DNA from: Marinobacter oulmenensis
Lineage (GTDB): Bacteria; Pseudomonadota; Gammaproteobacteria; Pseudomonadales; Oleiphilaceae
Direction: 5' to 3'
Assembly (NCBI RefSeq): GCF_014201735.1
Contig: NZ_JACHFE010000001.1
Location: 186,001-250,000 of the forward strand
Length of the DNA stretch: 64,000 nucleotides
Shown: piece after piece, positions 12,263-14,498 of the stretch
Numbering within the stretch: the first letter of the stretch is position 1
Layout: every line of letters starts with the position of its first letter
Position numbers and translations under genes: made by a program
Notes under the pieces: model-generated
Seen by the model: the letters and a program-made list of their open reading frames with translations, nothing else
Told to the model about the DNA's origin: nothing
Database searches by the model: none

Positions 12263-12604
12263 CTAGAGGATCTCCCGCTGGACTTCGAGAATGGCCGCGT
12301 CAATGCGCTCGGCGATCTCTTTTTCAACCTGGTCCAGGCGCTGGGTAATCTGTTGTGAGGAGGCGCCCAGAGCGGCAACGGTCCAGGTGGCGCAGTCCAG
12401 TGCCTCGAGGTCGGCGGTTTCCGCGACCGCAAGGTCCGGCTCTTTGCCCCAGACCGCTTTGAGGGCCGTGAATACCTTGCGTTTGGCCTTGAGGTCATCG
12501 CAGCCATAGAGCTGGAAATGCAGGGTGAGCACGCCGACGTTGGGGGTGATCACCGGCTGCTGGGGGTTGCCTTGGGCTAGCAGTTTTCTGAGGGCTTCTG
12601 ACAT
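12263..12604 (-). CDS. DUF503 family protein (YlxP-like)
   Basis: 113 residues. The core NVGVLTLHFQLYGCDDLKAK followed by RKVFTALKAVW matches the small DUF503 family, with the conserved C-terminal TWTVAALGASSQQITQRLDQVEKEI-type segment. Gram-positive relatives (YlxP) lie in ribosome-related operons, but the function is unsettled. The ATG at 12604 has only a weak GGAT upstream; longer in-frame versions would run through the repeat at 12634-12730 and are rejected. That repeat is therefore in its presumed 5' leader. Confidence 0.8.
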   Translation of the reverse strand: MSEALRKLLAQGNPQQPVITPNVGVLTLHFQLYGCDDLKAKRKVFTALKAVWGKEPDLAVAETADLEALDCATWTVAALGASSQQITQRLDQVEKEIAERIDAAILEVQREIL

Positions 12605-12633
12605 GGGATCCGGATCAATGGTGAAGGGCGTAC

Positions 12634-12730
12634 GTGGTGGCGCCTGCCAAAAAACGCTCCTGCGGCACATCCATGTGACGCTTGGGCTCCGCCATCCCTG
12701 GCTCCGCACATTTTTGTCAGGCGCCACCAC
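12634..12730 (-). repeat. 97-bp element with perfect 13-bp inverted ends and GGA hairpins
   Basis: GTGGTGGCGCCTG at 12634-12646 is exactly inverted at 12718-12730. Read on the minus strand the interior holds three small hairpins with GGA in the loop: GCCA-GGGA-TGGC (12702-12691), CACA-TGGA-TGTG (12677-12666) and CGC-AGGA-GCG (12664-12655), the last followed by six T. Further GCGGAGC copies lie between. It sits between the acyl-CoA dehydrogenase stop and the DUF503 start. GGA-loop hairpins are the classical ligands of CsrA/RsmA. The element has no coding content that I can support. Confidence 0.7.
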
Positions 12731-12754
12731 GCCCGCCCGCAGACAGTTGAGGCA

Positions 12755-12791: not shown

Positions 12792-14498
12792 CTAGCCTAC
12801 TACAGGCGTCGCCCGTTTGATAATGGCTGCGGGGTCGGTGCCCGAGGGAAGGTTGCCGTAGTTCATGCCACCGGCGCTTTGCAGCCGCGAGGCGCAGAAG
12901 GCATCGGCCACGTGAGGGTCGCTGTAGCGCAGCAGCAGGGAGGCCTGCATCGCCAGCGCCATGCGGTCGACCAGGTTGCGGGCCCGGTACTGGAAGTCGC
13001 TGACATCGCCAAAGTCGGTCTGCAGGTTGGCCAGGAACTGGTCGAAGCGCCGGTCAGCGCCTTTGGCTTCGGCGACCTCCCGGAAGAAGGCATCCAGGCT
13101 CTCGGGTTCCTTTTGCATGGCGCGCAGGGTGTCCAGACACTGGACGTTGCCGCTGCCTTCCCAGATGGCGTTGACCGGAGACTCCCGGAACAGCCGGGGC
13201 ATGATGCAGTCTTCCATGACGCCGCTGCCGCCTATGCACTCCATGGCCTCGTAGGCGTGGTTGGGTGTGCGTTTGCAGATCCAGTATTTGCCGATGGGGG
13301 TGGCCAGGCGTGTCAGCAGGCGTTCGTGTTCCTGGTCCTGGCTATCCAGGGCCCGGGCAACGCGCATGGTGTAGGCCAGCGCGGCTTCGCTTTCCAGGGC
13401 CAGGTCGGCCAGCACGTTCTGCATCAGCGGCTGGTCGCTCAGCCGGGCTCCAAAGGCACTGCGGCTGTGGCAGTGGTGGCTGGCCTGGGCGATGGCCTGG
13501 CGCATGCCGGCAGAGCTGCCGATCATGCAGTCAAAGCGGGTCATGGCCACCATGTTGATGATGGTTCGCACACCCCGGCCCTCTTCGCCAACCATCCAGG
13601 CCAGCGCGCCGCGCAGTTCGACTTCGCTGGAGGCGTTGGCGACGTTGCCCATCTTGTTCTTCAGTTGCTGGACCTGCCAGGGATTCTTGGTGCCGTCCGG
13701 GCGCCAGCGTGGCATCAGGAAGCAGGACAGGCCGGCATCGGTCTGTGCCAGCACCAGGAACGCATCGCTCATGGGGGCCGAGACAAACCATTTGTGGCCC
13801 ACCAGTTCGTAGGCCTGGCCGGAACCGGGTTGCCCCACCGGATAGGCGCGGGTGGTGTTGGCCCGTACATCGCTGCCGCCCTGCTTCTCGGTCATGGCCA
13901 TGCCGATGGTGACGGAGGTCTTCCCGGTATCGGGGATGTTGCGGCTGTCATAGCTGTTGGCCAGAATTTTCGGCTCCCAGAGTTGGGCCAGTTCCGGCTG
14001 GTTGCGAATGGAGGGGATGGCCGCAAAGGTCATGGTGATCGGGCAGCAGTGGGCGGCTTCCACCTGGGAATGCATGTAGAAACGGGCTGCCCTGGCGACG
14101 TTGGCACCCTGGCCGGGGTTGCTCCAGGGAGAGCTGTGGATGCCGTTTTCCAGCGCTACCCGCATCAGTTCGTGGTAGGCCGGGTGAAAGGTCACCTCGT
14201 CAATCCGGTGGCCGTAACGGTCGTGGGTCCGGAAGGTGGGTTTGTTGGCATTGGCCTGGTTGCCCAGATCGATGGTCTCGGCCCGGCCGGCCCATTCGCC
14301 AAAGCGTTCCAGGTCGTCGTTGGCTTTGCCGGCACCTTCGCGCAGCACCGCTTCGCGCAGTGCCTTGTCCTGAATGTACAGGTTGTAGTTTTCCAGCGGA
14401 CGGGGCTGATTGATGACCTCGTGGGTGCTGGCCAGGTACCGGTCGTCGTGGAGCGGTTCACCGGTGTTTGTTGTGTTGTTCTGTGTCGGTTTACTCAT
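12792..14498 (-). CDS. Acyl-CoA dehydrogenase family protein, AidB-like
   Basis: 568-residue FAD protein of the AidB branch. Signatures include HSSPWSNPGQG near residue 140, the FAD-contact region MAMTEKQGGSDVRANTT, GHKWFVSAPMSDAFLVLAQT, and GGSGVMEDC..LFRESPVNAIWEGSGNVQCLD, which is typical of AidB. E. coli AidB is induced by alkylation stress and binds DNA and FAD; its substrate is unclear. The start at 14498 (AGGAG upstream) overlaps the TetR stop by ATGA, so the pair is translationally coupled and probably controlled by that regulator. Confidence 0.85.
   Translation of the reverse strand: MSKPTQNNTTNTGEPLHDDRYLASTHEVINQPRPLENYNLYIQDKALREAVLREGAGKANDDLERFGEWAGRAETIDLGNQANANKPTFRTHDRYGHRIDEVTFHPAYHELMRVALENGIHSSPWSNPGQGANVARAARFYMHSQVEAAHCCPITMTFAAIPSIRNQPELAQLWEPKILANSYDSRNIPDTGKTSVTIGMAMTEKQGGSDVRANTTRAYPVGQPGSGQAYELVGHKWFVSAPMSDAFLVLAQTDAGLSCFLMPRWRPDGTKNPWQVQQLKNKMGNVANASSEVELRGALAWMVGEEGRGVRTIINMVAMTRFDCMIGSSAGMRQAIAQASHHCHSRSAFGARLSDQPLMQNVLADLALESEAALAYTMRVARALDSQDQEHERLLTRLATPIGKYWICKRTPNHAYEAMECIGGSGVMEDCIMPRLFRESPVNAIWEGSGNVQCLDTLRAMQKEPESLDAFFREVAEAKGADRRFDQFLANLQTDFGDVSDFQYRARNLVDRMALAMQASLLLRYSDPHVADAFCASRLQSAGGMNYGNLPSGTDPAAIIKRATPVVG

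Follow-up and report, generated by a model that had tools for sequence, protein, structure and literature searches.

The window analysed here, a 64,000-nt stretch of the Marinobacter oulmenensis genome (G000), carries a palindromic element between an acyl-CoA dehydrogenase gene and a DUF503 gene. The initial annotation described it as a 97-bp element with 13-bp inverted ends and three GGA hairpins, and raised the question of whether it is a dispersed decoy or a leader switch for RsmA/CsrA. The parts of the locus are as follows, in window positions.

12626..12738, minus strand: whole element, a long hairpin showing two ANGGAY loops (covariance-model match at contig positions 198626-198738; fold)
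12711..12738, minus strand: 5′ arm of the outer stem in the RNA sense, ending in an A-run (28-position stem; orthologue covariation)
12626..12653, minus strand: 3′ arm of the outer stem, starting with a T-run (28-position stem; orthologue covariation)
12691..12702, minus strand: hairpin 1, loop region AGGGAT (sequence, fold, family-wide loop counts)
12666..12677, minus strand: hairpin 2, loop region ATGGAT, context ACATGGATGT (sequence, fold, family-wide loop counts)
12263..12604, minus strand: downstream gene, DUF503 (PF04456; Pfam 62.2 bits, gene call), with its ATG 21 nt past the element
12792..14498, minus strand: upstream gene, AidB-like acyl-CoA dehydrogenase (AidB_N 217.3 bits, gene call), with its stop 53 nt before the element

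Both neighbouring genes had been named correctly at first, and the window copy lies in sense, 21 nt ahead of the DUF503 start. The predicted fold of the minus strand of this copy (−58.8 kcal/mol, z −4.5) was equalled by none of 200 shuffled sequences. The copy is about 113 nt long, and its outer stem has 28 positions per side, inner A-run and T-run included, of which 25 are Watson–Crick pairs, one is G–U and two are mismatched. The exact 13-bp inverted ends are indeed present (12634-12646 and 12718-12730); however, the 97-bp extent given to the element (12634-12730) is too short, since the paired stem spans 12626-12738. The boundaries described as sharp were misread as well, the outermost stem positions being the least conserved in sequence. 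The exact ends are thus the single-locus version of an outer stem whose sequence varies by copy. Two of the three four-base GGA loops that had been described, GCCA-GGGA-TGGC (12691-12702) and CACA-TGGA-TGTG (12666-12677), are found in the fold, and an extra A–U pair predicted for the free RNA narrows each of them to four bases. The third, AGGA in GCAGGAGC, forms no separate hairpin in the fold and is absent from variant copies; it does not characterise the family. The window copy does have the extra GCGGAGC copies claimed, but variant copies do not.

The suggestion that the element is present many times in the genome proved right. A DNA search of G000 already gave tens of copies, and a covariance model built from 36 copies (E up to 1) gave 55 matches, one of them the reverse strand of another, i.e., at least 54 distinct places; this is a lower bound, as 150 of 1,447 first-look candidates were scored. 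Among 38 genomes including the window's own, matches were found in 25 of 25 from the genus and in 0 of 13 from other families. The covariance model, with 145 candidates scored per genome, found the element in all 26 genus genomes, with at least 2 to at least 121 copies each, and the element was also matched in an uncultured Marinobacter MAG record. The reading as a dispersed intergenic repeat of a marine gammaproteobacterium is borne out by the G000 copies, the 26 genus genomes and the Marinobacter MAG. No copy of the 54 overlaps a gene as called by a codon-based gene caller made for this analysis (40 bases allowed at the edge). Many of the gaps read as inside housekeeping operons, e.g., hisG-hisD-hisC, purE-purK, ureB-ureC, hisH-hisA, nrdA-nrdB and pgk-fba, where gene names were read by eye from the protein sequences, Pfam having been applied to four genes of the window. 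With regard to carriage by phages or plasmids, one exact pattern gave 0 matches among viral contigs, and the window core had no blastn match among plasmid or phage records.

The flanks of the copies were also compared. Upstream, the commonest 8-mer occurs in 3 of 54 copies, and no word is recurrent. On the 3′ side, 17 of 54 copies have CTCC within 14 nt of the stem, against 3 of 54 when a control distance was used, and GCAGGCTA was seen repeatedly in the 3′ flank (5 of 54 G000 copies).

Across the 54 copies, the outer stems vary in sequence while nearly full pairing is kept in each, and the interior is conserved. The stem has a median length of 29 pairs, with 27-31 pairs in 43 of 54 copies. 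Each of the six outermost stem positions holds 0.01 to 0.13 bit. In the left arm, the consensus over the 20 outer positions amounts to 7.35 bits (vs. a maximum of 2.12 in 500 shuffles), about half of which sits in the innermost three of these positions. With so little information at the outermost positions, conserved terminal inverted repeats of the kind borne by MITEs of DDE transposases are absent.

Whether pairing has been maintained at a single site was examined in orthologues of the window locus. In 18 genomes including G000 (a 19th, G004, was left out as unresolvable), the gap between the acyl-CoA dehydrogenase and DUF503 genes carries the element in 12 and lacks it in 6, and by reading, the orientation is sense in 12 of 12 carriers. 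Eleven aligned carriers formed the covariation set, which excludes G013, where the second hairpin is interrupted by an insert. Paired cells amount to 98.1% vs. 85.2% in shuffled controls, 19 of 34 pairs are changed on both sides vs. 7.8 when shuffled, and the covariation score is 0.424 vs. 0.157 for shuffled and 0.051 to 0.121 for slid partners. None of 500 shuffles, a control that ignores relatedness, matched the pairing, the two-sided changes or the covariation score, whereas the number of further pair types was reached by 10 of 500. The structure used for the count was taken from one among the aligned sequences, and G008 is one base out of register at a few pairs, an offset that reduces the counts. 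The element has thus persisted at this site long enough for its stem to covary. Among the six sites without a copy, four (G001, G015, G012, G006) showed short hairpins by eye. A similar multi-hairpin stretch of about 80-100 nt was observed as an insert within the element's second small hairpin at two loci in two species, L073 (acyl-CoA dehydrogenase-DUF503 gap of G013) and L197 (pgk-fba of G015).

The mismatch pattern suggests which strand is constrained. G–U on one strand is A–C on the other, so a palindrome of double-stranded DNA would give no preference. Counted on the GGA strand, the ratio of G–U to A–C is 96:32 for an initial set of 59 distinct copies, 265:83 for a set of 155 distinct copies drawn from G000 and relatives, and 99:25 for the 54 G000 copies (39 favour G–U, 5 favour A–C and 10 tie), where the copies behind the counts are partly orthologous and hence non-independent. 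The excess amounts to 125:23 in sense vs. 81:42 in antisense copies (Fisher p 0.0005, with related copies non-independent). Because it is present in both, a transcription-linked mutation bias in operons cannot be the whole cause. The G–U preference suggests that the GGA strand is the one that functions in single-stranded form, in the simplest case as RNA, and the mutation pattern suggests that the element matters as RNA, although a single-stranded DNA hairpin is compatible with the excess too.

The conserved interior of this strand resembles a CsrA/RsmA target. Using a rule that requires a loop ANGGAN on stems of at least three and at least two pairs, two such hairpins, 22-25 nt apart, were found in 52 of 54 copies; the other two copies have ANGGA at the same places, with two pairs in the first stem. 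In most copies loop 1 reads AGGGAT. The last loop base is C or T in 50 of 52 copies for loop 1 and 51 of 52 for loop 2, and the second loop base is C or T in 18 of 52 and 29 of 52, respectively. According to a published review, the ANGGAN hexaloop hairpin is the bound form of RsmE targets, hairpins from SELEX mostly have four or fewer pairs, and a single CsrA dimer can span two sites separated by 10-63 nt, with an optimum above 18 nt (PMC7652899). An ANGGAN loop, a short stem and sites 10-63 nt apart are found together in the same 52 of 54 copies. G000 encodes one CsrA match (93.1 bits), and its csrA gene is intact. Judged by sequence and spacing, a potential for CsrA/RsmA binding is supported.

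A known RNA family lends further weight to this potential. At E up to 1, the TwoAYGGAY model (RF01731) gave 23 matches in G000, all of which are copies of the element on the GGA strand. Since the outer stem looks the same whichever strand is taken, the choice of strand must come from the interior. The family cut-off (43 bits) is passed by 1 of 54 copies (C10:46741, 44.2 bits), the window copy has no RF01731 match at E 1, and the stricter class-wide run (E 0.001) gave none in G000. Long-stem microRNA families also reach sub-threshold scores, so RF01731 scores near 35 bits are weak evidence alone. In the class-wide run, 17 of 274 gammaproteobacterial genomes had matches at E 0.001, 13 of them above the cut-off and five with at least 9 matches. 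When 22 places in five genomes of other families were viewed by eye, two hairpins on a longer stem were seen, the second loop often without GGA; these places were taken from the Rfam coordinates, as our element finder overlooked most copies there. The designation that fits the sequences is therefore "TwoAYGGAY-type", short of full membership in RF01731.

The proposal of an RsmA/CsrA decoy or leader switch is supported in part. The site potential holds, given the loops, their spacing, csrA and the TwoAYGGAY matches; a general leader switch does not. Relative to the GGA strand, all four gene arrangements occur, i.e., both neighbours sense in 22 copies, both antisense in 12, convergent in 13 and divergent in 7, and among the tandem copies the difference between 22 sense and 12 antisense is not significant (p 0.12). 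The 12 of 34 tandem copies that are antisense to both neighbours place no GGA loops in those mRNAs. A leader switch for all copies was thus rejected on orientation, including flips between relatives at the same gap, and the mixed orientation speaks against one uniform cis role. As for a dedicated decoy RNA, a terminator of the decoy type (five consecutive T within 12 nt 3′ of the hairpin) is found on the GGA strand in 0 of 54 copies. A search of G000 for RsmY gave a best match of 25.1 bits against a cut-off of 57, and 10 of 14 control genomes also match. This sub-threshold RsmY-like match (L243, G000 C8:80632-80770) is possibly the true decoy RNA of the genus.

Seven other operon gaps, picked for a sense copy in G000, were compared across as many as 26 genomes per gap. 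The 153 readings comprise 53 with sense copies only, 22 with antisense only, 1 with both, 76 in which none was found and 1 masked, and the sense share is biased by the choice of gaps; the copy finder overlooked at least one copy, that of G015 at pgk-fba, which bears an insert. At hisG-hisD, 12 species carry an antisense copy, G000 a sense copy and G015 copies in both orientations; at hisD-hisC, G013 has a sense copy and G005 an antisense one. Core-less, graded remnants were found at liuA-liuB in G010, G024 and G012. These differences in orientation, presence and remnants imply that copies come and go and may insert anew, while some persist until they covary.

Copy-free gaps bear on where the stems come from. 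At hisD-hisC (13 of 13) and hisH-hisA (8 of 8), the copy-free gap measures 0 to 39 bp and holds no hairpin of score at least 9; an origin of the outer stems from palindromes that preceded insertion at the site was thus rejected as the general case, though it may apply at individual sites. Over the seven gaps, 18 of 76 copy-free readings hold such a hairpin (hisG-hisD 5 of 10, hisC-nif3 1 of 13, nrdA-nrdB 7 of 19, liuA-liuB 2 of 2, and pgk-fba 3 of 11, one being the overlooked copy), several of them other repeat types. The graded remnants at liuA-liuB suggest that some of the short hairpins at copy-free sites of the window locus may be scars of lost copies. Other palindromic repeats, of the GTCGGATTA/TAATCCGAC, GGGACAGA/TCTGTCCC and GGGGTCTGAAG types, were also seen in copy-free readings, at L169, L171, L173, L175 and L183 (nrdA-nrdB), L188 and L237 (G004) and L155 (G002). 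The same operon gaps may therefore be hot spots of hairpin repeats.

Based on these observations, we consider it probable that the element is a TwoAYGGAY-type RNA repeat, structured and dispersed, whose loops would most likely hold one CsrA/RsmA dimer. A repeat of about 113 nt would have spread into gaps between Marinobacter genes, and its GGA strand would be transcribed, usually as intercistronic or untranslated mRNA. The transcript is predicted to fold into a stem of about 29 pairs topped by two ANGGAY loops 22-25 nt apart, which most likely bind as a pair to a single CsrA/RsmA dimer. A sense copy, such as that before the DUF503 gene, might tether CsrA to the mRNA, whereupon downstream translation or stability could change, and 50-100 copies jointly could soak up CsrA. 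Tethering, mRNA protection and titration are each possible. More speculatively, and as a tentative proposal, TwoAYGGAY may be, rather than an ordinary small RNA, a self-spreading RNA repeat with a ready-made CsrA dock. In Marinobacter and several other gammaproteobacteria, it would have brought CsrA sites to tens of operons, creating both a distributed sponge and a fast-evolving regulon for CsrA.

The alternative that survives best is a REP/ERIC-like selfish or neutral repeat, in which the hairpin, as single-stranded DNA or RNA, serves spreading, and the CsrA-like loops are the signal of a mobilising factor or a coincidence. The copy numbers (at least 2 to at least 121 per species, in both orientations) fit such a repeat, as do the core-less remnants and the differences in presence and orientation at the same gap among relatives. 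In G000, all 8 pairs of copies that lie within 400 nt of each other face outward, and the G–U excess persists in antisense copies (81:42), where a role in the mRNA of the neighbours is impossible. Among the RF01731 matches listed for other families, four pairs lie within 400 nt; three face outward (two in G306 and one in G195), and that of G127 is head-to-tail. Close pairs were also observed frequently to join two core sub-types. However, no link to Y1/RAYT transposases was found: PF01797 is absent from 11 of 26 genomes, some with at least 105, at least 92 and at least 79 copies, whereas G004 has 22 PF01797 matches yet at least 6 copies of the element. RAYT-driven spread was rejected on the absence of PF01797 from high-copy genomes. 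The only PF01797 match in G000 is a Y1/RAYT transposase remnant with an internal TAG (L031, C6:31216-31437). Moreover, the outer ends are not conserved in sequence, so there is no terminal inverted repeat; same-site copies with compensated stems look functional, and the loops match the CsrA consensus closely. Taken together, we regard a selfish or neutral repeat of this kind as unlikely.

A further alternative is that the hairpin stabilises mRNA or serves RNase III processing in the gaps of operons; the stem would then be the function and the loops secondary. The fairly narrow range of stem lengths, the copies between operon genes (hisGDC, purEK, ureBC, nrdAB and pgk-fba, named by eye) and the ability of either strand to form the stem would suit this role. 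However, the loop-bearing interior is the most conserved part while the stems vary, and the G–U excess lies on the GGA strand even for antisense copies, making this quite improbable. A transcription terminator or attenuator, for which strong intergenic hairpins would speak, is highly improbable, as the five-T run missing from the GGA strand follows the hairpin on the other strand in just 1 of 54 copies, and many copies lie between genes that read as operons.

To return to the reading as a CsrA/RsmA-binding repeat, two consequences would follow if copies bind CsrA: a moving repeat would have supplied targets of a global regulator in the genus, and the function of an orphan Rfam family would become testable. 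The in-place covariation is, in addition, a clean natural data set for the evolution of compensatory changes in RNA stems.

Finally, we compare the element with systems already described. REP and ERIC-like palindromic repeats are dispersed and intergenic, lie in operon gaps and occur singly or as inverted pairs. The element shares all of these properties, whereas its stems vary yet stay paired, its loops are conserved and an association with RAYT is absent. Like TwoAYGGAY, the element has a long, poorly conserved outer stem and two A-N-GGA-Y hairpin loops, and some other gammaproteobacteria have several matches to that model each. TwoAYGGAY has been catalogued as a probable RNA that is unlikely to be cis-regulatory, with human gut, gammaproteobacteria and Clostridiales as its sources (PMC2864571), and has been proposed to bind CsrA (PMC4333381). 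The element differs in its loop 1, mostly AGGGAT rather than AYGGAY, and, relative to those descriptions, in being dispersed in both orientations. Among the matches listed in open-licence papers, no description of the element, or of TwoAYGGAY as a dispersed repeat, was found.

The element also shares GGA hairpin loops with CsrB/CsrC and RsmX/Y/Z, whose loops can sequester CsrA/RsmA (PMC7652899). Whereas those are dedicated sRNA genes with many sites, the element has two sites per copy, tens of copies and no T-run terminator. As in CsrA leader sites such as that of glgC (PMC7652899), hairpin GGA sites precede a start codon at the window locus, where the copy ends 21 nt before the ATG; in contrast to sites of the glgC type, both GGA sites lie within the element, neither lies on a Shine-Dalgarno sequence, and the sites are borne by a repeat. 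Dispersed palindromic repeats and CsrA hairpin sites are each known; what is new is the union of both in one repeat.
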